Part shown: in pieces, positions 2,393 to 60,152 of the stretch
Numbering within the stretch: the stretch's first letter is position 1
Layout of the letters: each line of letters begins with the position of its first letter
From: Fuerstiella marisgermanici
GTDB taxonomy: Bacteria; Planctomycetota; Planctomycetia; Planctomycetales; Planctomycetaceae
NCBI RefSeq assembly: GCF_001983935.1
Contig: NZ_CP017641.1
Location: 5,923,001-5,987,000, forward strand
Direction of reading: 5' to 3'
Length of the DNA: 64,000 bases
Program-made: the position numbers and the translations under genes
The notes under the pieces: generated by a model
Told to the model about the DNA's origin: nothing
The model's input: the letters and a program-made list of their open reading frames with translations, nothing else
Databases searched by the model: none

Positions 2393-2434
2393 CGGCTCAG
2401 ACTTGCAGCCAGTGACTGCACGGCCGGTGGTTTC

Positions 2435-3328
2435 TTACACGAATTTCAGGCGATCTGGAAACTCAGGAGTCGCTCCGTCCTGAGAGCACACAAAGGCAGC
2501 CACTTCGCAGGCTCGCTCAATCACGTGCTGCGGATCACAGCCACTCAGCAACCCAACGGCCAACGTGGCGGTGAACGAATCGCCCGCACCAACCGTGTCC
2601 CTGACGGTCGTTTCAACGCCGTCAGCCTTGAACAACGTTCCGTCGTGCCACAGCGCCGCGCCGCTGGCTCCCAGCGTGAGTGCAATCGTATTTAGCTTCC
2701 AGCGGTCTGCGATTTTAGGAAGCAGTTCGTAGTCACTGCCGGATGCATCGCTGAGTTTCGCGACCAGCGGTAGTTCCTCGTCGTTTAGCTTTAAAGCGGT
2801 GCAGATTCTGAGCGACTGCTGGATGACGTCGTCATCGTAAAATGGCGGTCGCAGGTTGATGTCGAAGATCTTTAACGCAGAATCCGGAGTGCTCTGAACA
2901 AACCGCTGAATCGTTTCGCGCGAAGTCTGATTGCGTTGTCCCAGAGTCCCGAAGCACAAGGCCTGCGTTCTCGCAGCCAGTTCTTCCAGACCGTCATTCC
3001 AGGACAGAAAATCCCACGCTGTGTTTTCAGCAAACTGATAGCTGGCATGCCCCGTTTCGTTTAGAGACACATGAACGGTACCGGTGGGTTCCGAACGGAC
3101 CGCGACAGCCGACGTGCCGACTCCTCGCCGCTTTAATTCCTGCAGCGCATTCTGACCGAGTTCGTCATCACCCACCGCGCTTGCCATGGCGACGTCAAAT
3201 TTGTTTGACAGCGCCGCTGTCGAGCAGGCAAAGTTGGCCGGAGCTCCACCAAAGCGAGGTCCATCGGGAAAGATGTCCCAAAGTAATTCGCCCAGGCCCA
3301 CGACGCTCACACTTCCATCGACATTCAT
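2435..3328 (-). CDS. PfkB-family carbohydrate kinase (fructokinase-like)
   Basis: A 297-residue sugar kinase of the ribokinase/PfkB family, which phosphorylates a sugar with ATP. It starts with VVGLGELLWDIFPDGPRFGG, and GGAPANFA is the N-terminal PfkB signature. The C-terminal signature DTVGAGDSFTA contains the catalytic base Asp and the anion hole. Start: the ATG at 3328 has GGAAG a few bases upstream; the frame could begin at 3367, which would overlap the permease gene by 28 bases. It is last in a four-gene minus-strand operon after a sugar binding protein, ATPase and permease, so it most likely phosphorylates the imported sugar. The sequence resembles fructokinases, but substrate is inferred from context only. 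Confidence 0.88.
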   Translation of the reverse strand: MNVDGSVSVVGLGELLWDIFPDGPRFGGAPANFACSTAALSNKFDVAMASAVGDDELGQNALQELKRRGVGTSAVAVRSEPTGTVHVSLNETGHASYQFAENTAWDFLSWNDGLEELAARTQALCFGTLGQRNQTSRETIQRFVQSTPDSALKIFDINLRPPFYDDDVIQQSLRICTALKLNDEELPLVAKLSDASGSDYELLPKIADRWKLNTIALTLGASGAALWHDGTLFKADGVETTVRDTVGAGDSFTATLAVGLLSGCDPQHVIERACEVAAFVCSQDGATPEFPDRLKFV

Positions 3329-29900: not shown

Positions 29901-31132
29901 ACGGCCGAATTGAAGATGTCTGCGTCACCGATCAGCACCCCGGCAACGGTCTTGGCGACGGTGCCTGAATTACCCGCGTCGAAGTTGAACACGACGTCCG
30001 CACCAATCAGATCGTTACCGAAAATCGGTGCGGCGATCGGTGTGCCGGGCAATACTGCGGGAGCACGGTCAATGTCGATGACGAATTGAAAGACATCGCC
30101 CGGCAGAAAGTTTGTGAAATCGACGGTAAGGATCTGGTCGTTGGAACTAAGAGTCGCAGTTGCACCGATTCCCGTGTTCCCGACAACTGTGAACGGCTTG
30201 CCGTCAAGGCCTTCGTCAAACACCAACCCGAGATCTGACAGGTCAAGCGTAAACTGCTGCAGCATCTCGCCGTCGATGGCGTTGTTCCGGATCTCAAACG
30301 GCTGCACAAAAGTATCGCCGGCCGCGCGGAAGAAGACGTCCGCGCCGGGCTCATTGCCGATCACGTTATTGGCGATGCGCAGTCCGTCGGTCGGAGCGTC
30401 AGACAGGTTGACCTGAATCGCATCTTTGTTCAGTGCCTGCACGCCGAGGTTGTCGACGATCTGAAAATCATTCGCGCTGGAAAAGTCGCCCGCTGTCGAG
30501 CCGCTGACTGTCAGCATTACGCCTTCCAGATCGGCTGGCGCACTGATTTCGTTTTGAGTGACAATCCCGTGGGTAATGTCAGAACCATTCAGTGCATTAA
30601 TACTGACAGACGGCGTGATTGAGTCCTCAATCGTGACGGCATGGCTGTCTGTGTTGTTCAGCGTAATGTTGATGCCGGCACCCACATTCGCGATCGTGAT
30701 GTCTTCCAACGAAATCGTGCGGTTGCCCGTCACGTTCGTCAGATTGACATCGATCCCCGTCCCGCTAAAGGCCGTGACGTTGACGGTCTCGATGGCTAAT
30801 CGGTTTAGCGTGACACCGGAAAGATCGATTGAGATCCCTTCGGTCGTCGAAGCCAGATCGATCCGTTCGATCACGATTTCATCGTGCGCGCCCAGGTCGG
30901 CGTTGGTGATAGACAGGTTGCCCGTGCCGATGTCAACGAAGTTGTCAACGTTCGAATTGTTGATCACCAGCGCCGTCAGCAGCGTGCGGCTTTCCAACTG
31001 TTCGCCGCCCGCGCAGTCGCGCCTTCGACTGGTGGATCGACGATTCGCCGCGCCAGCGCCCTGTGCCGCGCCGTAGAAATTCGCGCTGAACAAGTGTCGT
31101 TTTGCTGCTGCAAGCCATGTGTTGAGAAGCAT
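20990..31132 (-). CDS. Giant multidomain surface protein (LEPR-XLL-like, beta-helix, PKD, Fn3-like repeats)
   Basis: About 3380 residues. The chosen start at 31132 (MLLNTWLAAAKRHLF) leads within 60 residues to EQLESRTLLTA, a planctomycete N-terminal motif (LEPR-XLL-like) thought to serve surface export; the frame is open 100 codons further, but that part looks non-coding. Residues ~60-1700 are mostly right-handed beta-helix repeats rich in Asn/Asp/Gly. They are interrupted near 550-780 by three FCCH-like repeats (HGLQTGD, HGLSSGD, HGLQTGD). Then come a pre-peptidase-like domain (EENDSFQGASQLG), an SbsA-like/Ig segment, a second beta-helix (LENLTVRGGEAYDGGG) and a PKD domain (MYEWDFNYDG). Six or seven Fn3-like repeats with FRVWVRALDDDG-type cores precede an acidic region and a basic tail. 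Probably adhesive or structural; ligand unknown. Confidence 0.9.
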   Translation of the reverse strand: MLLNTWLAAAKRHLFSANFYGAAQGAGAANRRSTSRRRDCAGGEQLESRTLLTALVINNSNVDNFVDIGTGNLSITNADLGAHDEIVIERIDLASTTEGISIDLSGVTLNRLAIETVNVTAFSGTGIDVNLTNVTGNRTISLEDITIANVGAGINITLNNTDSHAVTIEDSITPSVSINALNGSDITHGIVTQNEISAPADLEGVMLTVSGSTAGDFSSANDFQIVDNLGVQALNKDAIQVNLSDAPTDGLRIANNVIGNEPGADVFFRAAGDTFVQPFEIRNNAIDGEMLQQFTLDLSDLGLVFDEGLDGKPFTVVGNTGIGATATLSSNDQILTVDFTNFLPGDVFQFVIDIDRAPAVLPGTPIAAPIFGNDLIGADVVFNFDAGNSGTVAKTVAGVLIGDADIFNSAVFARGAGAAANVHGINLNLTNSPLTNTEVVDNVITGVAGHGILVGAHDVSDITGIMDRNTITSSGQDGIRFELEDSNFTGALRDNTIGQNSGHGINFLPSVSRSGFVEEAFDGTPIQITSTNHGLQTGDVIVIQGMTNANPNINHPGNGTHTITRTGNNTFTLNGTNGLVSGVNYNAGGAWYVPDFQGGTANGLVKIDVQGTQPEGRITDIVNPAGAGDVIFTSVGHGLSSGDRIRVSGATGTLITGDYKITVLSANTFSLDGVRASGAYDKSGGLARWTSNLITGATNPLTGGIVITSVGHGLQTGDQIRVANVGGNTAANGTHRITVLTADTFLLQGTTGSGGYTSNTGYWTPIAETTFTGDTLPQLISGNAITSNNLAGINIDLKTGTSFDGDIVQNNISSNAAKGIHIESHSYGVGATLPLDPSDPLALPGPQDISFNVNIGSDVSTTGGPNGIPLDGNVIDNNGHAGIVVEVLDLATGSFEIKGNKITSSVDDNDANTGWAGDGIYVALESDEFDVDANSLLAESVIENNIIGVDAQGNDGNGLNFLLTERTKIQDLEVVKNFFGNNGADGFHFERTENGSLNAVVLDDNDVTNNLGDGFDLYAQNSVDDRLDFKIQRNDINNNAEYGLRINVQAAARIEVDFHTNDVIGNGHSANGNGFHPNDAASNFTGNPTGTNFLGNAGAAGGVGIFGFEEVEVVFNATDSRISQNVGDGFSVDALDERDTLRVNANFTDMEFIGNTLTGVRSNGIAFGTINFVSSLLNHNREDGLRIVAVEDKNSTFETRVGGSDITVTAIGNQFVGNWLNGAVLGQGVSAVMGNGTTTAEFANVFDGNGYTDPAITGTARVNTGGDGLKIVQDAGPYLHSLGSVAQTSQSNNTLSLGRRRVIQTQSNYFRNNGGHGIDIGHDVSLEGGNVEHGYEVVSDTDIIINNAVISSNDGDGIEYLADGTLRVPSVAGGGQYISNPTDVSSLYVSDSRIESNEGRGIDILNRVNEDSRIVLVNNEVLTNNLSGVYVMNTLAHEQVQFGPNDPLFASTTTDIFSELNNHPVIGWNAKTPNIELRVQSNNILDNGNQQTSSTVPIPQSGQVNDSTGVRSSDWTHDFRQVTGTLGGLVVRVGTADTLGYALGLGDPFYNAANTEVELGLSGIDAEVVNNTFNGNFGASVFLDSFVSIIPPQSQGWFNYTADVPHLRGANWRQGYRDPLARLDMVFRGNSGNSLDVTNGFAFIDNDENYFKSRRRGPSSSPPQDHAHGPVLSPNGYFSNVTRSRNATRTLGWFNSIGEVPSSVYQVNLDPNTAFGSLEFSFEGHGTSTWRVESDYDFNNFNQTSTVQGFSTFEDTVELVNTDDTFEFNSNNSILSVDPRYSFQWDTGRNTTTFTGLTPYSLSRGDIFNVDDNEDPIQPDGMEENDSFQGASQLGVLGGNSISVNAFTNNSLQPGVLNIDHKGDRDYYRFKTHATFANPAANLININVGTDDGTGNPIDPDGDSLRFMIYEVQPLTDTEEVPLIQQSGIPQYTSVTNGGTGFIQVTAKPNTEYIIEILSAEESNLGVSGGGTGGTNFVYGTTRGYTLSLDAPIGTTPVLAGAATGSGSATGSFSTFVTGGNAGQTAAVSIPDEAPTVSDITDVQPNAGQPINVAVNTITVQFSEDVTGVDLSDFELTRDGNVVALAGAIFNPIDLEHYEITNLAPLTNIAGDYVFSVKIDTSAIIDTDGVALVAGGNDSESWTLDNLVSATYDARDNIPGDGQIADANGNRTLRAAINEANANPGADIIHLAPGTYLLDIAGRSEDEGFKGDLDVLENLTIRGTGADATETVIDASQIDRVFHIYPGVNLTLENLTVRGGEAYDGGGFFIEGTATPDGVVSSTGGMLNIVDVNIIDNEAYNQGGGIYNLGTVNASRSSISRNEAGSRGGGVFNHGKVELVNSTLSSNMAVSRGGGLFNERQDSAVNPTIRPIQTVGSLYALNSTIAFNSAGAEGGGLYQEGTATFEIGNTIMEKNTASSSPDLQGTVNSMGFNFIGDLDGTPADALLQNSDIVAEATAGVTEAGLAPLSSNGPNGTWHHALNAGAYVIDAGSNTLYADETGVAVGSLINEFDQVKRPRQVEGNNDGAFSIDIGATEFFVSQPVAIITATPNPAGVNETVNLSAALSTHTLVPGSSKITMYEWDFNYDGTFDPQATGVTATTSYPAIGQFVVALRVTDDTNQQDLETVVINVNVPSKPVITAPFTGGTSDSTPTIAWSAGTGAFTVTVTDADGQVVFTQTGVTENSYTPTTSLPPGTYTAVVTASNASGTAASDPHTFQVVQLSVLEPAHQSIQFDTTPEFIFTAIPNAERYQVWVSQQDPADRRTTIAIPINDSFVDASGALIAGTSNAMYESQTSLGEGYYRVWVRAIESNGNAGDWSTANQFQIVRPAITGPIANGGATIDSTPTFTWTDIGANQYEIWISQLNGTDANGNVVTSPLVVANVRGIQGTSYTPPNAIGDGDFRVWVRALDDDGEPGLWSPQYNFTKNLNAGPTLIFPIGGETVTDRTPEFVWQAQDGATHYEIWVNNITTGQVRQIHNTNVEHVAGATEITYTDPVAVLRNASYRWWVRAFNEDGQAGAWSQPSQFFVPTPSMTGPGDPNPNAPIVTISDTNLPTFSWTTVPEYVRFELWVNNVDTGASRVIYEPNLTTNSFTPDLPLENGTFRAWVRAFDDVGNASQWSNPNNFILDATVGNAPQLLAPTNFSTDNTPTFEWTALPNVTQYEILVKNMLLTGQPTVLNQVVPLELDPFSGNPIFTATTNLASGTYRWWIRGLNADGNPGPWAQPLDFRVASSDMAIPRELEDVPEPEVLFASIQADELYRDDLRIITVHPAAVVATLTVDQTEQVSAEQTLTEEAEATGDVDSVMEELATADWWMGESDEAISEDIFAEVAEQLVDGESAVVVASSPQQANQAQGAAVLGIALATTGHRQRKPKREEE

Positions 31133-31968
31133 GCTCAATACCCAACAAGGTGTTTTAATAGAGATGTGAATCTGCCTTGGAGCCCGCAAAACGGAGCATC
31201 CTTCAATGAACGGACGTACCTCGACCGTACAAACAGACATCACGCCATTGATAAGATTCGGTTTATGCAGGGTTTTCTGTTTAGGAAAACCCTGATGCCG
31301 ACCGCGCATTGGCTGGAAAGGCAAATAGACAGACGCCGGGAAATCGCCTTTCCAACAGTTCAGCCGCAGAATCGCGGCTCTACAACGTCGCAGACGGAGT
31401 TTGATTCGATTCGCATTTTTCTGCGACCCCAAACACCGGATTGGTCATCTGCGACACTTAGGTGCCGCAGGAAGCCACGGCAGACAAGGGCAACCAACAC
31501 CTCCAACGGACACCGCGAGAACTCGAACAGGGGTGACTTTGTGATTTTCTTAGAAAACCTGCGAAATCTACGTCCGCAAAATCGACTGGATGCGATTGGC
31601 CCCTTAGTCGGCTTGTTGTCCAACATGGCAAGGATCGCGGGCACCTATTTACATCCGAGGCCGGCTGGTGCGGCATGGAGTCGGGTTTGCTGAAGGTCTG
31701 GAGAACAGCACCCAAGGGAAATCAGCATCACGTTCAGTGAGCTCAACTCTGCCGCATCGTATTTTTCCCGGTCGATGCGCCGCTGCCGCCGAAAGACCTC
31801 CTGCTATCACGACGCATTTGCCTGCAAAGTGGATCGCAGCGGCCGCTCAAGGTTGGAATTGTCTCTTTCCGCAACGCGAATTTGGCCGAACGAGCGATTC
31901 CCCTTTCCGAATTTGCCGATATTTGCTAAACCACCGGCTCGCCTACAGACCGATAGGGAAGCGGTGGA
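31133..31968. promoter_or_regulatory. 836-bp divergent intergenic region with a hairpin
   Basis: No convincing gene lies here; short frames on both strands lack family features. It must hold the promoters of the giant surface gene (minus) and the DUF11-type gene (plus). At 31268-31294 there is a perfect 10-bp inverted repeat (CAGGGTTTTC / GAAAACCCTG) with a 7-base loop, about 140 bases before the giant gene's start. It could be a 5'-leader structure of that messenger. Precise promoters cannot be assigned by eye. Confidence 0.5.
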
Positions 31969-43564: not shown

Positions 43565-43637
43565 AGTCCGGTCGTCCAACGGTTGAAGACGCTGCTCTGA
43601 TAAGGCGGAAACGAAGGTTCGACTCCTTCCCGGACTA
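43565..43637 (+). tRNA. tRNA-Ile (GAT)
   Basis: 73 bases. Acceptor AGTCCGG pairs with CCGGACT; T-arm GAAGG TTCGACT CCTTC; anticodon loop CTGATAA gives GAT. A1-U72 and discriminator A fit isoleucine. The anticodon stem has two G-U pairs and the D-stem is short, so it is somewhat degenerate. No CCA is encoded. First gene of the tRNA array. Confidence 0.82.
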
Positions 43638-43720
43638 TTCCATCAACAACAACTGCATGCAGGATCCAGCACCATGTCGCGTCAACATCGAGTCAAACAC
43701 AAACCCACAACTCAACTCTT

Positions 43721-43792
43721 GAGGCTGTGGTGTAACGGCGGCACATCGGTCTTTTAAACCGAACGGTGAGGGTTCGAATCCCTCCGGCCTCA
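43721..43792 (+). tRNA. tRNA-Lys (TTT)
   Basis: 72 bases. Acceptor GAGGCTG with CGGCCTC (one G-U), anticodon stem TCGGT/ACCGA, loop CTTTTAA (anticodon TTT), T-arm GAGGG TTCGAAT CCCTC, discriminator A. CCA is not encoded. All arms pair well. Confidence 0.92.
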
Positions 43793-43821
43793 TTCGATAG
43801 TGAATTTCAAATCAGCAAACT

Positions 43822-43892
43822 GCGTCCATGATGTAGCGGTAGCCTACTGCCTTGCCATGGCGGAAGTGTGGGTTCGACTCCCACTGGACGCT
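43822..43892 (+). tRNA. tRNA-Gly (GCC)
   Basis: 71 bases. Acceptor GCGTCCA/TGGACGC perfect, anticodon loop TTGCCAT (GCC), T-arm GTGGG TTCGACT CCCAC, discriminator T as expected for glycine. Two bases after it begins a spacer repeat also found after tRNA-Asn. Confidence 0.92.
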
Positions 43893-43894
43893 TT

Positions 43895-43920
43895 GGCAAA
43901 CCATGCGTTTGCATCGGGTG
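43895..43920 (+). repeat. Array spacer repeat, copy 1
   Basis: 26 bases matching 44081-44106 at 23 positions (shared core GCGTTTGCA, then CGGGTG). Each copy starts 2-3 bases after the end of a tRNA gene (Gly and Asn), suggesting that tRNA plus spacer was duplicated. Confidence 0.7.
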
Positions 43921-43959
43921 GCGTTGGTGGCACGGGAGAGTTCCGGTGCCACCAACGCC
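43920..43959. repeat. 14-bp perfect inverted repeat in a tRNA spacer
   Basis: GGCGTTGGTGGCAC pairs perfectly with GTGCCACCAACGCC around a 12-base loop, between tRNA-Gly and tRNA-Asn. There is no T-run after it, so it is not an ordinary terminator; it may be a processing structure or decayed insert. Confidence 0.75.
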
Positions 43960-44002
43960 GAGATCATCGATCTGCCGCTGCTGGTACATATTCATAAACG
44001 AT

Positions 44003-44077
44003 TGCGGTGGTGTCCGTGTTGGTACGGGCAGGCGGCTGTTAACCGTCGTGACGCAGGTTCGATTCCTGCCAACGCAG
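44003..44077 (+). tRNA. tRNA-Asn (GTT)
   Basis: 75 bases. Anticodon stem GGCGG/CCGTC, loop CTGTTAA (GTT), T-arm GCAGG TTCGATT CCTGC, U1-A72 and discriminator G fit asparagine. The acceptor stem has one mismatch (G5 against A68). Confidence 0.85.
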
Positions 44078-44080
44078 CTC

Positions 44081-44106
44081 GGCATACCAGGCGTTTGCAC
44101 CGGGTG
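44081..44106 (+). repeat. Array spacer repeat, copy 2
   Basis: Second copy of the 26-base spacer at 43895-43920 (23 of 26 identical), starting 3 bases after tRNA-Asn. Confidence 0.7.
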
Positions 44107-44253
44107 CCGATTAAGTCTCGGGCACGTTCCGTTGAAGTTTTCATCAGTGAGTTGATCGAATGGGCTTCAGTTTTTTGTATTCGAAGTCACGAGAACATCG
44201 GCCACTACTGTGCATTACTTTGCAAGCGTCGCTTCTGGAAGAACCACACATAC

Positions 44254-44344
44254 GGAAGGACAAGCCAATGGGTGATGGCAACTGTTTCGAAAACAGCCGA
44301 GCGTCCGCAAGGATGCCTTGAGGGTTCGACTCCCTTTCTTTCCG
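44254..44344 (+). tRNA. tRNA-Ser (CGA)
   Basis: 91 bases with a long variable arm. Acceptor GGAAGGA/TCTTTCC (one G-U), anticodon loop TTCGAAA (CGA), discriminator G, T-arm GAGGG TTCGACT CCCTT. The anticodon stem has a weak outer pair. Confidence 0.88.
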
Positions 44345-44356
44345 CTTCCAAAAAAT

Positions 44357-44427
44357 GTGTCTCTGACCGAGCGGTGAGGTACCGGGTTTCCATTCTGGCC
44401 AGGCGGGTTCGACTCCCGCGAGACACT
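44357..44427 (+). tRNA. tRNA-Gly (TCC)
   Basis: 71 bases. Acceptor GTGTCTC/GAGACAC perfect; loop TTTCCAT (TCC); T-arm GCGGG TTCGACT CCCGC; discriminator T. Two G-U pairs in the anticodon stem. Only 12 bases after tRNA-Ser. Confidence 0.9.
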
Positions 44428-44438
44428 TTGAACATCAA

Positions 44439-44513
44439 TGCGGGGTAGTTTCTGTTGGTAGAAATGCGTGGCCTTGAACCACGCGTCCGCAGGTTCGATT
44501 CCTGCCCCCGTAG
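44439..44513 (+). tRNA. tRNA-Gln (TTG) with C at position 33
   Basis: 75 bases. Acceptor TGCGGGG/CCCCGTA, U1-A72 and discriminator G are glutamine features. Anticodon stem CGTGG/CCACG and loop CCTTGAA give anticodon TTG. Position 33, almost always U, is C here. All other arms are sound. Confidence 0.85.
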
Positions 44514-44517
44514 CTTT

Positions 44518-44602
44518 GGAAGTCATCCGGCCGGATCAGGGGCCTGTCTTGAAAACAGGTGCGAGGTCGTCCCCGTTGTGGGTTCGAGTCCCACGGCTTC
44601 CG
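44518..44602 (+). tRNA. tRNA-Ser (TGA)
   Basis: 85 bases with a long variable arm. Acceptor GGAAGTC/GGCTTCC, anticodon stem CCTGT/ACAGG, loop CTTGAAA (TGA), T-arm GTGGG TTCGAGT CCCAC, discriminator G. Starts 4 bases after tRNA-Gln. Confidence 0.93.
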
Positions 44603-44622
44603 CTCGACAAGAAAAACAATTC

Positions 44623-44697
44623 GCCCTCGCAGAGCAGCCCGGAGTGCTCGCCACCCTGTCACGGTGGAGATCGTCGGTTCAAATCCGACCGGGGGTG
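44623..44697 (+). tRNA. tRNA-Asp (GTC)
   Basis: 75 bases. Acceptor GCCCTCG/CGGGGGT (two G-U pairs), D-stem GAGC/GCTC, anticodon stem CCACC/GGTGG, loop CTGTCAC (GTC), T-arm GTCGG TTCAAAT CCGAC, discriminator G. Confidence 0.9.
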
Positions 44698-44779
44698 CTA
44701 CTTCAAAAGCGGACACGGCAACGCGGAAAGACGACGACCGCTCATATCAGCTTCCGCTTCCCCTCTGCTTTACTGACGC

Positions 44780-44853
44780 GGCACCGTAGCCCAACTGGAA
44801 GAGGCACTCGGCTTAGGACCGAGGCGTTGAGAGTTCGAATCTCTCCGGTGCTA
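44780..44853 (+). tRNA. tRNA-Leu (TAG), class I variable loop; integration target
   Basis: 74 bases. Acceptor GGCACCG/CGGTGCT, anticodon stem CTCGG/CCGAG, loop CTTAGGA (TAG, reading CUA), T-arm GAGAG TTCGAAT CTCTC, discriminator A. The variable loop has only 5 bases, whereas bacterial tRNA-Leu normally has a long arm. Its 3' end is the attachment core of the integrative element, and the integrase gene ends inside it on the other strand. Confidence 0.85.
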
Positions 44854-46126
44854 TTTCCTGCCTCCGACCAGAAGCGAATTCAGGCGAATGACCGCGAAAA
44901 ACCTTGGGTTTTGCGTGATCGTCCGTTTTGGCGGTTTCGCCAGTTCTCCCTGATTCGCTGGGGTACTGCACCACCTGGCGCACCACCTTGGACGCCTTCA
45001 GCCCGACAGCTTGTTCAAAGTGGTGGTCTGCCACTTGAGCGTAGTTGGCGTTCTGAACCTTCACGCTGTGACCAATCCAGGCGGCGACGACGTGCGGCGG
45101 AAATCCGGCGTCCAGCAATTCCGTTTCTCGACTGGCCCGGCAGTTCTGAAACAACTTCGGCCACTTCAGCAAACCAGCCCGTTTGATGATCCGGAAAAAC
45201 TGAGTTCGCAGGTTGCTGTTCGTGTCGCGGTAGCGGGTCACCAGAAACTGCTGAGCGTCTTCTGATCGGTCTTTGGCCAGTTCGTACGACTGATCAAGGA
45301 ACGGGCGCAGTTCAGGCCACAGCGGAATCACGCGGGCTTCTTTGCCTTCATGGTGTTCAGTCTTGGGGCTTTTGATGTGAATTCTGTCTTGGTCCCACAA
45401 AACATCGTCCCACGTCAGTTGAAGCACTTCCGACGGACAACGCAGGCCACCAAAACGACACAGAGCAATGATCAGTTGCCACTGAGAATCCGGACAAGCG
45501 TCCAGACACTTCTGAATCTCGCCCTGCGTCACGAAGTAGTCACGCTGTCGATTGGGCATGGTGGTCGATTTCTGATCCTGAAACGGGTTCTCGTCAATCA
45601 GCCGACGGCGTTTCGCGGCCGTGAAGAACAGCTTCACAATCTGAATGTGCTTCCTAACAGTGTTCTCCGCGTTGCCTTTGGATTCTGCCAGCCAGCGGCG
45701 GAAGTCATCGGCTTTGCCCAGGCTGACCGAATCCAGCAGGCAATCACCGAAGAACTCATTCAGATAGCCCGCTGTTGTCTGCCACTTTCGAATCGTCAAC
45801 GGTTTGGCAACACGCCCGGATGCCGTTCTTCCGGCTGCGATGTAATCGGCAACGAACTGTTTCAGGTTGCTCGATTCGCGAGCTTCAACAAGCCCGACAG
45901 AAACCAACTTATCCCGTAACGTCTTGCCGATGTCGGACAACCACAACGCAGTTTGTCGATCGATCGACTGAGCGGATGTCTTGGCGTTCACAAGTTCAGC
46001 AACGTGGCGGCTGACTTGTTGGGCTTTGGCTTTGTTCAATCCCGAAATGCGAATCGATCGGCGGCGGCCGTCCGGGGCGAGAAAGAAAATTCGGTAGCCT
46101 TTGGCGTCTTTGCTGACTGAAGCCAT
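44813..46126 (-). CDS. int: Tyrosine recombinase/integrase (integrated form)
   Basis: A 437-residue integrase. An N-terminal arm-binding/SAM-like region leads to the catalytic domain: FGGLRCPSE (first Arg), KSPKTEHH (Lys), FQNCRASRETEL (second Arg; the usual His three residues before it is Gln), WIGHSVKVQNANY (second His/Gly and catalytic Tyr). It integrates and excises the element at the tRNA-Leu end. Its last residues, APERFELSTPRS, are the attachment core plus antisense tRNA-Leu sequence, and the stop lies inside the tRNA gene. In the circular form the frame would run from the core into 52060-51881 instead. Start is the ATG at 46126. Confidence 0.93.
   Translation of the reverse strand: MASVSKDAKGYRIFFLAPDGRRRSIRISGLNKAKAQQVSRHVAELVNAKTSAQSIDRQTALWLSDIGKTLRDKLVSVGLVEARESSNLKQFVADYIAAGRTASGRVAKPLTIRKWQTTAGYLNEFFGDCLLDSVSLGKADDFRRWLAESKGNAENTVRKHIQIVKLFFTAAKRRRLIDENPFQDQKSTTMPNRQRDYFVTQGEIQKCLDACPDSQWQLIIALCRFGGLRCPSEVLQLTWDDVLWDQDRIHIKSPKTEHHEGKEARVIPLWPELRPFLDQSYELAKDRSEDAQQFLVTRYRDTNSNLRTQFFRIIKRAGLLKWPKLFQNCRASRETELLDAGFPPHVVAAWIGHSVKVQNANYAQVADHHFEQAVGLKASKVVRQVVQYPSESGRTGETAKTDDHAKPKVFRGHSPEFASGRRQEIAPERFELSTPRS
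44840..44856. repeat. attL core, direct repeat
   Basis: TCTCTCCGGTGCTATTT, 17 bases covering the 3' half of the T-arm, acceptor stem, discriminator and 3 bases beyond of tRNA-Leu. An identical copy lies at 52061-52077. Confidence 0.92.
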
Positions 46127-52466: not shown

Positions 52467-53279
52467 CTATGCTGGCTGCCAGACTAAAATCTCACCCTTG
52501 CCGGGCACGGACAGGTCACCGGCGTACCGCTGATACGAACCTTCGCTGGCGGCGAAGGGCAGGGCGATGCCGTGCTGCTGTAGCTGTTTGGAATACACGT
52601 TTAGGAACGTGGGATTGAATTCGTTGGATTCGGCGAACGTGGGCATCAGTTGCAGCGGTTTCATGGAAATGATGGTGCCGCGATTCATCCATGCTCCGGT
52701 GCGAATTTCGGCGCCGTCCTGCAGGATGATCGTGCCGCCTTTCATTTGCAGGCCGCAAAAATCGCGAGCGATTCCGCCGAGTACGATCGTGCCGCGCCGC
52801 ATTCTCATGCCGACTTCCAGACCGGCCGAACCGTCGACGATAATCAGGCCATTCTTCATGCCCGCCAAAGAACCACGGTAAGCGGCCCCAATTTGCCCGC
52901 CGACGTTACCGTGCACGTGGATGAAGCCGTTCTTCATTTCGGCACCGATCCAGTCACTCGCATCACCGTGCACTTCAATGCGGCCACCTCTCATGTAGGC
53001 TCCCAGATGCATCCCTACCTTACCGTGAACGGTAATACTGCCGCGACTCATCGCTCGACCAATCCAGCGAACCTTGTTCAGGTCACCGTGCAGGACAAGG
53101 TCTTCACTGCGTTCGCCGTCGACGTCAAAAAATTCGTCCAACGGAACCTGACGTTTGCCATGGTATACGGTGAGTGCTCGAATTTCCGCGTTGGACAATT
53201 CGCAAAGTGCGTCTGGTGACAGCACTTCAGATTCCAAAGGAACGGCGGGCGGTTGTTTAAGAGTGAGGATGATGGTCAT
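52467..53279 (-). CDS. fwdC: Formylmethanofuran dehydrogenase subunit C (FwdC/FhcC)
   Basis: A 270-residue protein with a C-terminal right-handed beta-helix of GxxxGxMxxG-type repeats, also seen in the glutamate synthase GXGXG domain: WIGAEMKNGFIHVHGNVG, GLEVGMRMRRGTIVLGG, FCGLQMKGGTIIL. The N-terminal part (LSPDALCELSNAEIRALTVY) is typical of FwdC. In the complex it sits beside FwdA and helps form the tunnel for formate between the two active sites. The gene is the last of the methanofuran set on this strand, 98 bases after fwdA; that gap holds a 15-bp inverted repeat. Confidence 0.93.
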   Translation of the reverse strand: MTIILTLKQPPAVPLESEVLSPDALCELSNAEIRALTVYHGKRQVPLDEFFDVDGERSEDLVLHGDLNKVRWIGRAMSRGSITVHGKVGMHLGAYMRGGRIEVHGDASDWIGAEMKNGFIHVHGNVGGQIGAAYRGSLAGMKNGLIIVDGSAGLEVGMRMRRGTIVLGGIARDFCGLQMKGGTIILQDGAEIRTGAWMNRGTIISMKPLQLMPTFAESNEFNPTFLNVYSKQLQQHGIALPFAASEGSYQRYAGDLSVPGKGEILVWQPA

Positions 53280-53376: not shown

Positions 53377-55011
53377 CTATTGGGTTTTGAGTTCCGTCAT
53401 GTCCGGATTTTCAATTCGTTCCAATTCGACCGGGTAGTTTTCAAACTGCATTGTGTAGCAGTCTTCAAACAGCGGACGCATGAAGTCGTCAGTCTCCGGC
53501 GCGTAGTCCGGCTTTACCAGAAACTCGCGACCATGAGGCGTCTCGCGGATGTCTCCGTCTTCGATCACAACTTCACCCGCTTTGATCACATAGCGAGGAT
53601 GGCTGAACATTCGAGCTACGTCGTCTTCCTCTTCGTAGATCACAATGTCCGCGTCACAGCCGACGCCAAGGTTCCCCTTCTTTGTTAAGCCGAGGGCTCG
53701 TGCCGGTCCCGCAGACATCGACGTGGCAACTTCGTACAGCGTGTATTCACGATCGATTTCGGGCAGCGTAATTTTGCCTTTGATTTTGTCCGGCAGTTTG
53801 GCGATGCATTCCTGGCGGAAGTCGGCACACATAAGTAGCTGGATAATTTCCGGATAGCGCCAGAAGCAACCGCCGTTGGGATGATCAGTCGACAGGAACA
53901 CCTGCCACGGATTTTTAATCAGCAGCATTAATTCCAGCCCACTGGCCCACTGCACGGCATTCACCAGATTGCTGGGACGATAGGTGTAGGGCACGATGCC
54001 GCAGCCGGTTTCGTTTTCGACATCCAGGTTACCCCACTTCCGGCCCGTTAGCTTGTACAGCAAATGCTGCCACGGCCCGTCGGCGGTGATGGTGACCGTG
54101 TCGCCAAACAACACAGCGCCGGCATCCGTGGTGATGTTGGGGTGAGTGTTAAAGTAATCGGCGAGCTGCGAAGTGGCGGAACACATGGTTTCCCAGCCGT
54201 CGCCGCCGTAAGCGTGGTACTGCGAATGAGCGATGTGGGCTCGATGCCCTTCCAGATGCTTGAGTGTATCCAGTGTGGTGGAAATGTTTCCGGGGGCCCC
54301 GAGGTTATTGCAGTGCAGGTGCATCGGATGAGGCAACTGTAGATCGTCGCAGATCGTTGCCAGCATCGTGACAATCTTGCCCGGCGTCAGGTTGTCGTAG
54401 CCAGCGATCGGATCGGTTAACTGGCTGGCATTCTGGCCCCACTTCCATGCAGTCACTCCGCCTGGATTGACGGCCTTCACACCGTACGACTTCGCTGCCC
54501 ACAGATACCATGCGACAACGTTGCGAGCTCGCTCCATTTCGCCCGCCTGCATCTGGTCGAGCATGATTTCGTTGTTGGCCATCAACGTCAGCGACGCCTT
54601 GTCCACGATCGGAATGTCGGCCAGTTCTTCGTGGGTATGCCTGGCAGACAACACAGGCACCGCTGCTTCGTTCACAGTCGTGAATCCCATACCAGCGTAA
54701 AGATAGCCGGTAGCGAACGTCGTGGGCGCCATGCCTCCCAAACCGCTGCGGCGACTTTGCGTGCGGATGAACGCTTGCGTGCGGCGATGGTCTTCCGGCG
54801 TCATGGCTCGTGCAAAGTTCATCGCTCCACCGGCCACGTGAGTGTGCACGTCGACACCACCGGGAAAGATGATCATTCCAGAGGCGTCGATCGTCCTGCC
54901 GCCGTCAACCGAATCCACAATTCGGCCGTGGTCGTCGATGCAGATATCTTTGATCTGGCCGTTGATTTCGTTTGCGGGGTCGTAGACTTTGCCGCCGGTA
55001 ATTTTCAGCAT
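53377..55011 (-). CDS. fwdA: Formylmethanofuran dehydrogenase subunit A (FwdA/FhcA), amidohydrolase
   Basis: A 544-residue amidohydrolase that makes or breaks N-formyl-methanofuran (or a relative) from formate. It begins LKITGGKVYDPANEINGQIK; the metal motif VDVHTHVAGG is near residue 55. MHLHCNNLG and HIAHSQYHAYGG give further His ligands, and FLSTDHPNGG holds the conserved catalytic Asp. YDNLTPGKIVTML is family-typical. The frame begins with a TTG three codons earlier; the ATG at 55011 is used. The enzyme works with FwdB/C/D in the cytoplasm. Between it and fwdB lie three unrelated genes, so the set is a loose cluster. Confidence 0.95.
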   Translation of the reverse strand: MLKITGGKVYDPANEINGQIKDICIDDHGRIVDSVDGGRTIDASGMIIFPGGVDVHTHVAGGAMNFARAMTPEDHRRTQAFIRTQSRRSGLGGMAPTTFATGYLYAGMGFTTVNEAAVPVLSARHTHEELADIPIVDKASLTLMANNEIMLDQMQAGEMERARNVVAWYLWAAKSYGVKAVNPGGVTAWKWGQNASQLTDPIAGYDNLTPGKIVTMLATICDDLQLPHPMHLHCNNLGAPGNISTTLDTLKHLEGHRAHIAHSQYHAYGGDGWETMCSATSQLADYFNTHPNITTDAGAVLFGDTVTITADGPWQHLLYKLTGRKWGNLDVENETGCGIVPYTYRPSNLVNAVQWASGLELMLLIKNPWQVFLSTDHPNGGCFWRYPEIIQLLMCADFRQECIAKLPDKIKGKITLPEIDREYTLYEVATSMSAGPARALGLTKKGNLGVGCDADIVIYEEEDDVARMFSHPRYVIKAGEVVIEDGDIRETPHGREFLVKPDYAPETDDFMRPLFEDCYTMQFENYPVELERIENPDMTELKTQ

Positions 55012-55329
55012 GAGAAACAAGTGACCAAAAGAGAATTAACGACGTTCCGAGGAAGTTTTTTCCCTGCGGAAGTGGAAAGAGTAGACTCTACAGCGAGAAC
55101 TTTCAAAGCCCTTTGCTGTGAGGTGAAGAAATGAGTGTTTCCGCATCAGCATAGCAGCCGCTGGCTTAAGACGTGGGGTTGGCCAATGTCTTTGTCGCAC
55201 TGGGCGCACAGCCAGAGGCGAGGCCGAATCCAGGGATGAAGACCACGGTCTGCCCCAATGAAATGCTCACACAAGCTGACTTGCCGTCGTCACATCGGTC
55301 CAGGGCGCGACGAGACCGTAAAGCAGTGA
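55012..55329. other. Intergenic region between the antiporter and fwdA
   Basis: About 318 bases without a supportable gene; it should carry the fwdA promoter. No clear hairpin or RNA was seen. Confidence 0.4.
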
Positions 55330-56358
55330 TTAAGACACCGGCAGAGAATTGCTTCTGGTCGCCATCAGCAGTAGCGCTGCCAGATAGGCTACGCCGGATC
55401 CCACAAACAAAGCGCCTTCCCAGCGATTGATGCGGTGACCAGTAAAAAACACCGGTAGACATGCCGCGGCAACAAGGACCATCACCGGGATATCAAACTG
55501 GAGCGACTGCTCGCCGACGGGAATTCCAATGGGCGACACGGCCGCCGATAGCCCCAAAACGACCAGCAGATTGAAGATATTGCTGCCGACAATGTTTCCG
55601 ACCGCGATGTCACGCTCGCCTCGATACGCGGCGACAATGGACGTCGCAAGTTCCGGCAGCGAGGTGCCACCCGCGACAATCGTCAACCCGATCACGAGTT
55701 CGCTGATGTTCATCCGTCGAGCAACCACGGTGGCCCCATCCACCAGCCAGCCAGCTCCCAGCACCAAAAACACCAGGCCGGTGGCAATCAGCGCGAGTTG
55801 CCGGAAAAAGCCTGCCCAACCAGAAGTTCGGCCGATCGTGGAATCGCCGATGGCTGCGCTGCCGAATGCGTTGTCATGTTCGTGCGGCCCATGTTCGCGC
55901 GGCACACGAATCGATTCTCGCCGCCCCACAACGATGCACCAGGTTGTGTGACAGAGGGCTCCCACAAACAGCCACGAACCTTCGACACGATCCACCGTCC
56001 CATCGACGGCCAACCACCACGTCAGCAGCGACGCACCAATCATGATGGGCACGTCGTAACGAATCAGCTTTGAATCCACCACCAATGGAATCACCAACGC
56101 CGACAGGCCAAGGATGAACAGCACATTGTAGATATTGCTGCCCACGATGTTGCCCACCGCAATATCAACTCGACCGGCAACGGCCGACTTTATGCTGACG
56201 GCTAGTTCCGGAGCACTCGTGCCAAACGCCACAACGGTCAGGCCGACAACCAAAGATGAAATTCCAAATTGAGAAGCAAGCTTTGAAGCTCCGCGCACCA
56301 GCACGTCGGCCCCAACGACCAATGTGATCAGCCCTGCGACGATTAACAGTAATTCCAT
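55330..56358 (-). CDS. Na+/Ca2+ exchanger family protein (CaCA, YrbG-like)
   Basis: A 342-residue inner-membrane protein with about ten spans in two repeats. Each repeat carries the ion-binding alpha motif: VAFGTSAPELAVSI and DIAVGNIVGSNIYN in the first, VAGGTSLPELATSI and DIAVGNIVGSNIFN in the second. The Glu residues in the APE/LPE positions are the calcium ligands. A hydrophilic His/Glu-rich loop (EHGPHEHDN) joins the halves and faces the cytoplasm. It probably exports calcium against sodium or protons. It is not functionally linked to the neighbouring fwd genes. Confidence 0.93.
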   Translation of the reverse strand: MELLLIVAGLITLVVGADVLVRGASKLASQFGISSLVVGLTVVAFGTSAPELAVSIKSAVAGRVDIAVGNIVGSNIYNVLFILGLSALVIPLVVDSKLIRYDVPIMIGASLLTWWLAVDGTVDRVEGSWLFVGALCHTTWCIVVGRRESIRVPREHGPHEHDNAFGSAAIGDSTIGRTSGWAGFFRQLALIATGLVFLVLGAGWLVDGATVVARRMNISELVIGLTIVAGGTSLPELATSIVAAYRGERDIAVGNIVGSNIFNLLVVLGLSAAVSPIGIPVGEQSLQFDIPVMVLVAAACLPVFFTGHRINRWEGALFVGSGVAYLAALLLMATRSNSLPVS

Positions 56359-56520
56359 ATCGGTTCATTCAAAATGAAAATTTAGCAATGACCGAATGAT
56401 CGCTGCCGCAGGGAAGGATTACCAGAAAGCCGAACGCTCAAGGACGGGCGTTCGGTCTCTGGCGATGAACACCGAAGACCTTGCCGATACTGCGCGACAA
56501 GGTCAGAACAGGTGATGCTC

Positions 56521-57090
56521 TCAGGCGACGTGCTGCTTTGCCTGCCTGGCTGAGGGCAGGGCCGTTGGAACTGCGGCGGGATTGAGTGCCATGGGGTCCA
56601 CGATGTCCCCAGGTGCGAACTCGAGCGGAACGGGACCGTCTGGAGCGACGCCTAACTTCCAGTTCAGCCGCTGCCACCACGGAAGTCGACGTTCCCAGCT
56701 ACGAATGGCTTCGCGCAATCGGAGCACCGACGGATGGTTCTTTTCTCGAATATCGGCCAGAACACTGGTCGCTCCCTGCGGGCGACCAAACAACAGCAAC
56801 GACGTTGCGTAGTTGGTCTGGTAATAGACAGGTGCCCCCGGTTTCAGCCAGGTGCAACCGGGAGCCAAAGCCAAAGTCCGCAGCAAACCTACTGCGGCTT
56901 CGATCTGACCGGTACGCATCATCAAGACGCCTCGCGCGTTGCGAATTTCATCTGACTGACGACTGGCGTCCGCCAGCAGTTGGCGAGCATCATCAAATTT
57001 TTCGAGATCCGCCAGCTGAGCCACTTTCAACAAAAGTGGAGCCGGAGTTGGAACCTGGGCCGTGGAGCTCAAGGAAGATTGTTGGTTCAT
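56521..57090 (-). CDS. Hypothetical TPR-like protein
   Basis: 189 residues from an ATG at 57090 preceded by AAAGGTGA. Residues ~20-120 form helical pairs (LLKVAQLADLEKFDDARQLL, GVLMMRTGQIEAAVGLLRTL) that look like tetratricopeptide repeats. The C-terminal half has WERRLPWWQRLNWKLG and a Pro/Ala-rich end. No signal or membrane span. Function unknown; such proteins usually mediate protein contacts. The frame is open to 57381, but that part lacks protein-like features. Confidence 0.65.
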   Translation of the reverse strand: MNQQSSLSSTAQVPTPAPLLLKVAQLADLEKFDDARQLLADASRQSDEIRNARGVLMMRTGQIEAAVGLLRTLALAPGCTWLKPGAPVYYQTNYATSLLLFGRPQGATSVLADIREKNHPSVLRLREAIRSWERRLPWWQRLNWKLGVAPDGPVPLEFAPGDIVDPMALNPAAVPTALPSARQAKQHVA

Positions 57091-57262
57091 GTGATCACCT
57101 TTATCGTTTGCCCGAAGACTGCTGAAGCGCAGACCGCGAGTCGCTGTGTGAATTGCCAAACTAGCGCGCAGACTGATGCCGCTAGTGTTGCCGAAGAAAA
57201 GCCAGACACGAGAGCGTGTCGGCTGGACAAGTGAACGCAGGATTGAAGCGGTTCCTGGGTTC

Positions 57263-57856
57263 TTACTGTCGAAGCAAAACGCCCAGAACGAGCAGATCCG
57301 GACTGGTCGAAACCGGCGTTGCGTGAGGCCCCCAGGCCTGAGCCATTCTTCGCAGCAGTGTTCGAGCAACCGCACTCGCATGACGATGGCGGTCCACGAG
57401 AATCTGGAATCCGGCGTGACAAGACACCAATTCAGGGCCGCCAGATCCTTGCCAGAAGGCGACTGGGGCGGAGGTCGGCAAGGTGACGCTTAGAACAGTT
57501 TCCCTGTTGTTGGGGACGGTTCGGGCTTGTGGGAAACAGCCTTCGTCGTCTGAAACGCCTGTTCCGCAGCCAGAGGTCAGCCAGACTCGCTGTAGCTGCG
57601 TGGCGGAAGACGAATCGACGTCAATCCCTGACGCTCCTACATCAGATCGCGAGCCGACAAGACTCACAGCGTCCACCGCCGTGACGTGATCAATCGTCGG
57701 CTGCTGACTCTGCCCTGGCGGGTAAACGCCAGCAACAACCAGCGACAAAGCAATCAGTAGCAAGCACGAAGCACCGCAAAGTGAATGGGCCAGAACGCGT
57801 TCCGACCAATTCCTGCTGTGCTGAGCCGACAGATCTGTATCGACAACGTGTGCCAA
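57263..57856 (-). CDS. Hypothetical single-span membrane protein (uncertain)
   Basis: A 197-residue frame with one membrane segment (CLLLIALSLVVAGVYPPG) at ~30-50 and a C-terminal part with SCHAGFQILVDRHRHASAVA. The only possible start nearby is TTG; no ATG or GTG is in frame upstream before a stop. Sequence after the span resembles an exported domain, and the end carries an Arg/His-rich stretch. It could be a real but poorly conserved gene or a remnant. It lies between fwdB and the TPR-like gene on the same strand. Confidence 0.4.
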   Translation of the reverse strand: MAHVVDTDLSAQHSRNWSERVLAHSLCGASCLLLIALSLVVAGVYPPGQSQQPTIDHVTAVDAVSLVGSRSDVGASGIDVDSSSATQLQRVWLTSGCGTGVSDDEGCFPQARTVPNNRETVLSVTLPTSAPVAFWQGSGGPELVSCHAGFQILVDRHRHASAVARTLLRRMAQAWGPHATPVSTSPDLLVLGVLLRQ

Positions 57857-58080: not shown

Positions 58081-59421
58081 TCACACCTGACATTCAATCA
58101 TCTGCGGCTGGCTTCCGTCCGGCAACCAAAACGGTTTTTCGGAAATCGCCTGGTTGATGCGTCGCACGACTTCTTCATCCGACGGATATGGCGACTTCAA
58201 AGCCGGCTTCAATGGCAGCGGAAGTTCGTCCATGCGATAGGCCGTTCCTGGAGCCGCGATTCCCTGAGGCGCCGTGGTGATGTGGACTCGAGCCAGCTTG
58301 CTGGTGTGCGTAATGTGCGGATCGAGACAGATTGTGGGAATGCGTTTGAGGTGATCGATGGCCGGTTGAGGCATCGTCGCGCCGGGATCGGCTCCGATGA
58401 TGAATGCCGCATCGCAGTCGCCTCGAACAAGTACATCCACCGTTGAGAACTCGCCCGGATTGTAACGCGGGTAGCCTCTGTTGAAGGTAATGCCAAACGG
58501 ATAGCCCGTCTGCCAACGCATGATGACGTCGGCACCGGTCACGTTGCCGTGCCCACGCATCGGCATCGCAACGAACTTGGTGAAGGCGTTCATCTCCGCG
58601 GCCAACGTCAACAGCGCGGCGCTGTTCATGTGCTTTCCGCGAGTCATCGACAGGCCCATGCCAAAGAAGAAGCAACCAAATTTGGCCGACTTCATGCGAT
58701 GCACAAGATCGTTGAGCCCTTCGCGAGTCATGCCGGTTTCTTCGATCTGAGCGTCGCCAACCGGCTGATCCTTGATCAGCGCGCGCAGGATGGTGATCAG
58801 TTCGAAGTCTTTGCCTGGTCGCACCTGCAAAAAGATGTCGGCCGCCTTCGCGCTTTTGGTTTCGCGAATGTCCACGAGCACCATCGTGCGGTCCTTGCGC
58901 CCGCGCGGCAGAAACTTTGACTTCTGCATGATGGTGTACTTCGTGAAGTGGCGAGGATGGCATTCGGCCGGGTTGCCTCCCCAATACACGATGAAGTCGG
59001 CTCGTTGTTTCACTTCGCCGAGTGTGCAGGTAACTTTACCACCCAACTGGGCGGCGATTTCGGTGGGACCGTGTCACAATGAGGTATGGCTGTCCAACAG
59101 CCCTCCCAGTTGATCGGCCATCGCGACGCACTCTTTCTGAGCTTCACATGTGGTGTTGCTCATACCATACACAAGCGGCATGTCCGCTTCATGCAGCAGC
59201 GTGGCAGCCATCTGAATAGCTTCTTCGACGGTCGCTTCTTTGCCATCGATTAAAGCGTGCGGGTATTTTTCTTCCGCTGTGTGATTCAGAAACCACGCCG
59301 TGCCGAGCACACAGGCTTTTTTGGCCTCGTGGATGCGAACTTCATCGTGGTGCAGTTGAATGTCATCGCACACACAGCCACAGAACGTGCATGTGGCGTT
59401 GTCAATTATCTGAAGAGTCAT
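58081..59421 (-). CDS. fwdB: Formylmethanofuran dehydrogenase subunit B, candidate selenoprotein (in-frame TGA)
   Basis: Read through one TGA at 59074-59076 this gives 446 residues, the normal FwdB length. The N-terminus CTFCGCVCDDIQ is the [4Fe-4S]-binding segment. The TGA is codon 116 in SHTSL-(TGA)-HGPTEIAAQ, where homologues have Cys or, in some methanogens, selenocysteine as ligand of molybdenum or tungsten. Downstream the same frame continues with VTCTLGEVKQRADFIVYWGG and NPAECHPRHF, both classic FwdB. There is no break in frame, and a SECIS-like hairpin follows the TGA. If Sec is inserted, the enzyme would reduce CO2 or oxidise formate at a Mo/W-pterin site. The alternative is a nonsense mutation. 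The ATG at 59421 is preferred over a TTG two codons earlier. Confidence 0.88.
59038..59055 (-). promoter_or_regulatory. SECIS-like hairpin after the fwdB TGA
   Basis: On the minus strand GCCGCCC pairs with GGGTGGT (five Watson-Crick and two G-U pairs) around the loop AGTT. The loop starts 25 bases after the TGA and has G in its second position, in line with the usual rules for bacterial SECIS elements (loop 16-37 bases away, G early in the loop). The assignment is by eye. Confidence 0.6.
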
Positions 59422-59819: not shown

Positions 59820-60152
59820 CTAAACCGGCACGACTTCCACTTCCCAGCCCTTCGACATTGGCATCCCCGTTCCTCCGGTATCGCCACCCATCAGTTTACA
59901 CGTTGGGGGGCCATAGGGAATGTAAATCATGCCTTTGGGTTCTTTTCCCGATTTGCACTTAAACTGAGCTTCGCCGAATTCCGTGCGAACGATCGCCATT
60001 TGCCCTTCGGCCAAACCGATTTCCGCCATATCGCCGGGTTCCATCGTCATGGAATTCGTCAGAGCGATATATTCTTCGGACTCCTTGCCGACATTGATGA
60101 GCGTTCCCTGTTTGGCGGAACGCGATGAGTTCAGGATAAATGTTCGCGACAT
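59820..60152 (-). CDS. fwdD: Formylmethanofuran dehydrogenase subunit D-like (molybdopterin dinucleotide-binding domain)
   Basis: 110 residues: LNSSRSAKQGTLINVGKESE near the start, then MEPGDMAEIGLAEGQMAIV, GMIYIPYGPPTCKLMG and GGTGMPMSKGWEVEVV. These are the features of the beta-barrel molybdopterin-dinucleotide-binding domain that in this complex is a separate subunit, FwdD. It completes the pterin site of FwdB. Its presence argues that the local FwdB binds a Mo/W-pterin cofactor and is redox-active. GACGGA lies before the ATG. It starts 27 bases after metB ends, so it may share the metB transcript. Confidence 0.85.
   Translation of the reverse strand: MSRTFILNSSRSAKQGTLINVGKESEEYIALTNSMTMEPGDMAEIGLAEGQMAIVRTEFGEAQFKCKSGKEPKGMIYIPYGPPTCKLMGGDTGGTGMPMSKGWEVEVVPV

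Follow-up and report, generated by a model that had tools for sequence, protein, structure and literature searches.

The genome of Fuerstiella marisgermanici (8.92 Mb, one contig) carries a gene for subunit B of formylmethanofuran dehydrogenase, fwdB, whose reading frame is interrupted by a TGA. We asked whether this TGA is a stop or a selenocysteine (Sec) codon, and what kind of enzyme the gene would encode if the latter holds. Standard gene calling splits this gene in two. If the Sec reading is true, a core C1 enzyme would be selenium-dependent in a whole bacterial clade. Should the encoded complex be redox-active, CO2 and formyl-methanofuran would be directly linked in these bacteria, and such activity would bear on planctomycete C1 metabolism and on the relationship between Fwd and Fhc. 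We analysed a stretch of 64,000 nucleotides around the gene, referred to as the window, and all positions below are positions in it unless another source is named (Table 1).

Table 1 Positions of fwdB, its sequence elements and neighbouring genes in the window.
Feature	Position	Strand	Basis
fwdB	58081..59421	minus	read through internal TGA; 446 residues from ATG 59421; natural stop TGA 58081-58083
In-frame TGA, very probably the Sec codon, at the Mo/W ligand position	59074..59076	minus	TGA in 91/91 relatives; structure alignment
Stretch with N-terminal cysteines (residues 13, 16, 18, 20, 39)	59311..59391	minus	all five kept in 132/132 homologs
Putative SECIS hairpin	59038..59055	minus	7-bp stem, apical loop AGUU; bSECIS rule, low synonymous variation
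fwdD, molybdopterin dinucleotide-binding subunit	59820..60152	minus	PF01568 31.5 bits, cut-off 26.8
fwdA, amidohydrolase subunit	53377..55020	minus	TIGR03121 686.6 bits; PDB 8rja_A, 5t5i_A
fwdC	52467..53279	minus	TIGR03122 266.4 bits
Na/Ca antiporter gene	55330-56358	minus	between fwdA and fwdB
ORF with weak TPR matches	56521-57381	minus	between fwdA and fwdB

The ligand codon of fwdB

A first-pass annotation of the window had reported two open segments that share one frame and are separated by a TGA. Translation with table 11 gave the same picture: the open reading frames 59427-59074 and 59046-58081 lie in one frame on the minus strand, split by the TGA and the stretch up to the next start, and the second opens with a TTG at 59046. 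The extent that had been assigned to fwdB was right as well, with the strand left out. Read through the TGA, the product has 448 residues when counted from the upstream TTG instead of the ATG, and against TIGR03129, the model of formylmethanofuran dehydrogenase subunit B, the whole frame reaches 492.1 bits where 327.8 is the cut-off, which upholds the proposed match to FwdB.

Comparison with solved structures placed the TGA, in the context SHTSL-U-HGPT, at the metal-ligand site that the annotation had named. Five FwdB chains in the PDB match the window protein over nearly its whole length (E 6.5e-93 to 2.4e-110). The TGA aligns with Cys in four of them (8rja_B, 5t5i_B, 9sw6_J and 7bkb_H) and with an X in 9sfi_Q, which we take to be Sec. 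The shorter chain 6s6y_B, presumably the methylotroph FhcB, matched the window protein weakly (E 1.8e-9).

We followed this codon across relatives, a check that the first-pass annotation had proposed. The Sec-class set combined the 30 best FwdB loci from 148 genomes (the source genome included) with the best 80 of 408 relatives from a contig scan, and deduplication of these 110 loci left 91 distinct genes, each at least 70% identical to the window fwdB. The ligand codon stayed TGA in all 91, a uniformity far outside what chance would give. In a 31st genome with Sec-FwdB (G055), where the gene is partial, the same residue is again encoded by TGA and the same hairpin follows. Another class of planctomycete FwdB (L091-L117), 54-60% identical, has TGC or TGT in all 27 loci fetched. 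The in-frame TGA of the 91 genes therefore stands where sister-class homologs carry Cys, as in bacterial selenoproteins. More distant FhcB-like genes carry Cys, G, E, F, S or A at the ligand position, and in 8 of 14 the residue is one other than Cys.

The hairpin and the selenocysteine machinery

The hairpin with an AGTT loop that had been noted 25 bases past the TGA was recovered at 59055-59038 on the minus strand; its stem begins 18 nt past the TGA and its AGUU loop 25 nt past. The rule for bacterial SECIS elements (bSECIS) given in PMC13188914 specifies a loop of 3-9 nt, a stem of 4-16 bp, a G at loop base 1 or 2, a spacing of 16-37 nt and an MFE of -7.5 or lower. Scoring against a bacterial SECIS model had been suggested in advance, and under this rule the window hairpin passed. 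So did 87 of the 91 Sec genes, none of 33 Cys-codon genes (a set that excludes L073, the second FwdB gene of the source genome) and 2 of 8 genes with other codons; four Sec genes missed the rule as coded.

Over the 91 Sec genes, the 18-nt hairpin has an energy of -8.8 to -15.0 kcal/mol. The loop is AGTT in every gene, and the stem has seven pairs in 80 genes and six in 11. Sliding the stem partners by 1 to 3 columns lowered pairing from 98.6% to 28.6-56.7%. The loop codons CAG-TTG are invariant (91/91). Leu-128, one of these two codons, is always TTG, while the other 20 of the 21 conserved Leu columns vary synonymously, the most uniform of them using four codons. We scanned synonymous variation over 260 well-conserved degenerate codon columns in 216 windows of 7 codons, and the six windows with the lowest variation start at codons 122-127, at the hairpin.

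Covariation in the stem was weak. One compensatory pair was observed, a C-G to U-A exchange in L045 that also changes Gly to Ser, and the covariation score was reached by 16 of 500 shuffles (30 sequences). We set covariation aside as proof of the hairpin and used synonymous constraint and the Cys-gene control instead. RNAalifold drew additional helices besides the SECIS hairpin. A search of the genome with the Rfam model SECIS_1 (RF00031) gave no match, a null that is uninformative because control genomes were equally silent.

The genes selA, selB, selC and selD, which the first-pass annotation had listed as worth looking for, are all present in the one-contig genome. selA (505.8 bits) and selD (263.2 bits) lie 1.3 kb apart; selB (336.2 bits) and the gene for tRNA-Sec (79.7 bits, anticodon TCA) are found at other places. 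The open frame that contains SelD, beside selA (G000:C1:1587774-1588730), is 772 aa long compared to 311 positions in the model; it is possibly a fusion. Formate dehydrogenase alpha homologs in the genome showed no internal stop among the listed matches except in the window FwdB, and thus no second selenoprotein was found among them.

Next to the source genome, we assessed the machinery in the whole set of 148 genomes, counting selB as full when over its curated cut-off and tRNA-Sec when above 60 bits. Of the 31 genomes with Sec-FwdB, 29 had full selB, compared to 41 of the 117 without (Fisher p 1.7e-9, a value that is overstated because the genomes are related and not independent), and tRNA-Sec was found in 28 of 31 compared to 40 of 117. 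The 41 genomes with selB and no Sec-FwdB indicate that selB is not kept for fwdB alone. One genome with Sec-FwdB (G015) is without full selB and without tRNA-Sec above 60 bits, with a partial selB match present; G055 is without full selB, and G006 and G088 are without tRNA-Sec. Each of these four genomes is a draft assembly in 440 to 740 contigs. In the genera g43, g53 and g31, one member has Sec-FwdB and selB and the other has neither. In g1, g46, g56 and g60, some members have selB without Sec-FwdB, as does G001, a genome of the same genus as the source.

The TGA could still be a real stop, in a split gene or as a programmed truncation, and the second half would then be re-initiated or in decay; table 11 does give two open reading frames, the second with a TTG start of its own. 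Yet the internal codon is never TAA or TAG in the 91 genes, while the natural stops of Sec-class fwdB are mixed (TGA 36, TAA 28 and TAG 25 in 89 genes counted), so the internal TGA does not behave as an ordinary stop. There is no further in-frame stop in the aligned part of these genes. Decay of the downstream half, which the first-pass annotation had raised as a sign against Sec, was looked for and none was seen: in 89 comparisons with the window gene, median pN and pS were 0.136 and 0.763 upstream and 0.115 and 0.632 downstream, which makes the downstream half as strongly conserved as the upstream half, the pN/pS ratio being rough because synonymous distances are at saturation. The HGPT directly after the TGA is invariant in Sec genes although it lies outside both table-11 frames, and the SECIS hairpin is correctly spaced. 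We consider a real stop highly improbable. Still less probable is that the TGA is a sequencing error or is read by a near-cognate tRNA that inserts another amino acid: the TGA is only one base from TGC or TGT, but it recurs in 91 distinct genes from many assemblies, the sel machinery is complete, and the hairpin is present in none of the 33 Cys homologs.

These sequence data suggest that the window TGA is very probably a selenocysteine codon. The UGA would be decoded by tRNA-Sec and SelB with guidance from the SECIS hairpin that closely follows it within the coding region, while SelA and SelD produce the Sec-tRNA.

Partner genes and the function of the complex

The annotation had also proposed a FwdD partner for FwdB, and a fwdD gene was found near it (Table 1). 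Its product is over the PF01568 cut-off and matches PDB 2ki8_A (E 6.5e-15) and 5t5i_D (E 5.3e-14), with NF042908 at 68.1 bits, under the cut-off of 175. fwdD, fwdA and fwdC lie on the same strand as fwdB, and the fwdA of the window is the sole FwdA over cut-off genome-wide. The antiporter gene and the TPR-like ORF (55330..57381) probably stand outside the Fwd system. At 3061 nt, the gap from fwdB to fwdA is the largest among loci with both genes detected. D-B-A-C was the commonest gene order, seen in 48 of 98 loci (window included; many loci are short). In the stretches fetched, FwdD was present at 89 of 97 Sec loci and at 20 of 27 in the Cys class, but at none of the 14 FhcB-like loci. For these counts, loci were not deduplicated, the single query could miss distant FwdD, and the FhcB-like set includes the second FwdB of the source genome. 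The formyltransferase Ftr was present in the fetched stretch of 33 of the 97 Sec loci; in the source genome it lies at 6.29 Mb, about 0.31 Mb from the fwdB locus.

Methanogen Fwd complexes include the iron-sulfur subunits FwdF/G. Among gene groups shared by at least 12 of the 98 loci (ORFs of at least 70 aa), we observed neither FwdF/FwdG nor a ferredoxin-like or electron-transfer gene near fwdB. The remaining groups of this frequency were frames overlapping known genes, together with what are presumably sulfatase-like proteins and a protein with a type-IV-pilin-like N-terminus.

The second FwdB of the source genome, L073 (G000:C1:405174-406445), has Cys at the ligand site. FwdD, FwdA, FwdC and Ftr gave no match in the 20 kb around it, and it was placed in the FhcB-like clade on a long branch. 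Elsewhere in the window, at 43565-46126, ten tRNA genes within 1.3 kb are followed by an ORF (44813-46126, minus strand) that looks to us like a tyrosine-type integrase, and a 3480-residue ORF at 20990-31432 is by its look a giant repetitive surface protein.

Intact cluster cysteines had been put forward in the first-pass annotation as an argument for a redox-active complex. The five N-terminal cysteines, four of which we assume to be [4Fe-4S] cluster ligands, are indeed intact and are kept in every distinct homolog tested, ligand-less ones included. The argument itself did not hold. All 8 ligand-less planctomycete FhcB-like proteins keep the cluster cysteines, which are therefore non-discriminating, and we rejected them as proof of redox activity.

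Sec might be inserted into a complex that is hydrolase-only and Fhc-like, in which FwdB is a scaffold that kept its ligand. The survival of cluster cysteines after ligand loss is compatible with this, as conserved parts need not mean activity, and so is the lack of a recurrent ferredoxin-like neighbour in the groups described above. Ftr accompanies Fhc gene sets, and its presence near about a third of the Sec loci (33/97) fits as well. However, Sec insertion is costly, and the codon has nevertheless been kept in 91 of 91 genes, while the ligand is replaced in 8 of 14 FhcB-like genes. FwdD, near most Sec loci (89/97), accompanies none of the 14 FhcB-like loci, and archaeal FwdB chains match the window protein at E 6.5e-93 or better compared to 1.8e-9 for 6s6y_B. 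We regard a scaffold role as unlikely.

The strict Sec codon, the FwdD gene and the closeness to archaeal FwdB instead point to FwdB as the likely catalytic Mo/W subunit. The protein combines the Cys or Sec ligand with the [4Fe-4S] cysteines, as FwdB does; a B subunit without a Mo/W ligand, the mark of Fhc, does not agree with a Sec codon in 91 of 91 genes. What can be read directly in the DNA is the signal for recoding, the genes of the machinery, the constraint on both halves, the ligand position and the gene neighbourhood. On these grounds we hold it highly probable that the locus encodes a Sec-FwdB, decoded via a SECIS element, and likely that this protein would ligate Mo or W in a redox-active D-B-A-C complex.

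Selenium insertion in the cell, the metal, the activity, its direction and the electron partner are what we infer in the following mechanism. Sec-118 would most likely be the ligand of Mo or W, with the bis-pterin cofactor held by FwdB and FwdD. FwdA, the predicted formyl-methanofuran/formate amidohydrolase, would join FwdC in the D-B-A-C complex, which may interconvert formyl-methanofuran-type C1 units and CO2. The H4MPT C1 pathway would then be ended or started by a redox step; methylotroph Fhc, in contrast, does no more than release formate. C1 oxidation to CO2 would be the likelier direction in these bacteria.

Distribution and comparison with known systems

Sec-FwdB was found in planctomycetes of 19 of the 95 genera examined and in one MAG labelled Acidobacteria. 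A quick tree search was run on 122 proteins, of which 75 were Sec rows thinned from 89 (near-full coverage, near-copies removed). In this tree, which has long branches, all 75 Sec rows form one clade (SH-aLRT 98), and the sister of the clade is the Cys paralog that adjoins the Sec gene in L201. On that planctomycete contig the Sec FwdB (2011-3306) lies beside the Cys FwdB (from 3487), which has CTC instead of TTG at the loop Leu codon. The Sec-class FwdB on the contig labelled Acidobacteria (L210, gp6 MAG) has the same hairpin and would be there by transfer or misbinning. In G037, a second FwdB-like fragment with the N-terminal third missing lies 3' of the Sec gene (L086:13277-14149).

A broader picture can be drawn, for and against which we see about equal weight. 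A large planctomycete clade would end its H4MPT pathway with an obligately selenium-dependent Mo/W D-B-A-C enzyme without polyferredoxin subunits. Sec would have become fixed a single time, at the root of the clade, without any later reversion to Cys. The enzyme would serve as a redox counterpart, in bacteria, to the CO2-fixing enzyme of methanogens and as an alternative to Fhc.

Whether bacteria have FwdB at all has been answered in different ways: it was said to be absent (PMC7331816, 2020) and was later found and ascribed to transfer from Archaea (PMC10100899, 2023). Two reviews of prokaryotic selenoproteins (PMC13188914, PMC9312934) list a single reference sequence for FwdB, one linked to Methanopyrus kandleri, and no word starting with "planctomyc" occurs in the main text of either. 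The selenium FwdB of M. kandleri (Vorholt 1997) is cited in both and in PMC4807772. Like methanogen selenium FwdB, the window protein has its predicted Sec at the UHGP site, and Sec and Cys isoforms may coexist. Archaeal SECIS elements lie mostly in the 3' UTR (PMC13188914), unlike the bacterial-type hairpin inside the fwdB coding region here.

The Cys-type planctomycete FwdB belongs to the same family and has FwdD nearby in most loci, as counted above; it differs from the Sec type in its TGC or TGT codon and in having no SECIS hairpin. The methylotroph FhcB is without Mo/W-bisPGD (PMC10100899, 2023). It is a homologous subunit, in an A-B-C complex, whereas the window gene has a Sec codon for the ligand and lies near a FwdD gene, and its product matches 6s6y_B only weakly.

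The closest known case is Rhodopirellula sp. P2, whose fmdB was described as a selenoprotein in an fmdD-fmdB-fmdA-fmdC operon, in a genome with full Sec-insertion genes (PMC4807772, 2016). That paper gives Sec fmdB for P2 and two unclassified bacteria and Gly forms for three other planctomycetes, and it is the one earlier report of bacterial Sec-FwdB that our search of the accessible open literature found. P2 and F. marisgermanici are alike in a planctomycete FwdB read as a selenoprotein, in their D, B, A and C genes and in their Sec genes; P2 has an additional Cys form of fmdB (PMC4807772). In F. marisgermanici, 3 kb separate B from A and Ftr is distant, in contrast to the P2 operon. The methods of the P2 paper name SECIS elements, but we found no SECIS analysis of fmdB there (PMC4807772). 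Bacterial Sec-FwdB is thus not wholly new, as PMC4807772 precedes this work. Unlike that report, the present data concern another genus and a broad clade and include synonymous constraint and Cys-gene controls; their novelty lies in how widely Sec-FwdB occurs, in the evidence for a SECIS element and in the contrast to FhcB.
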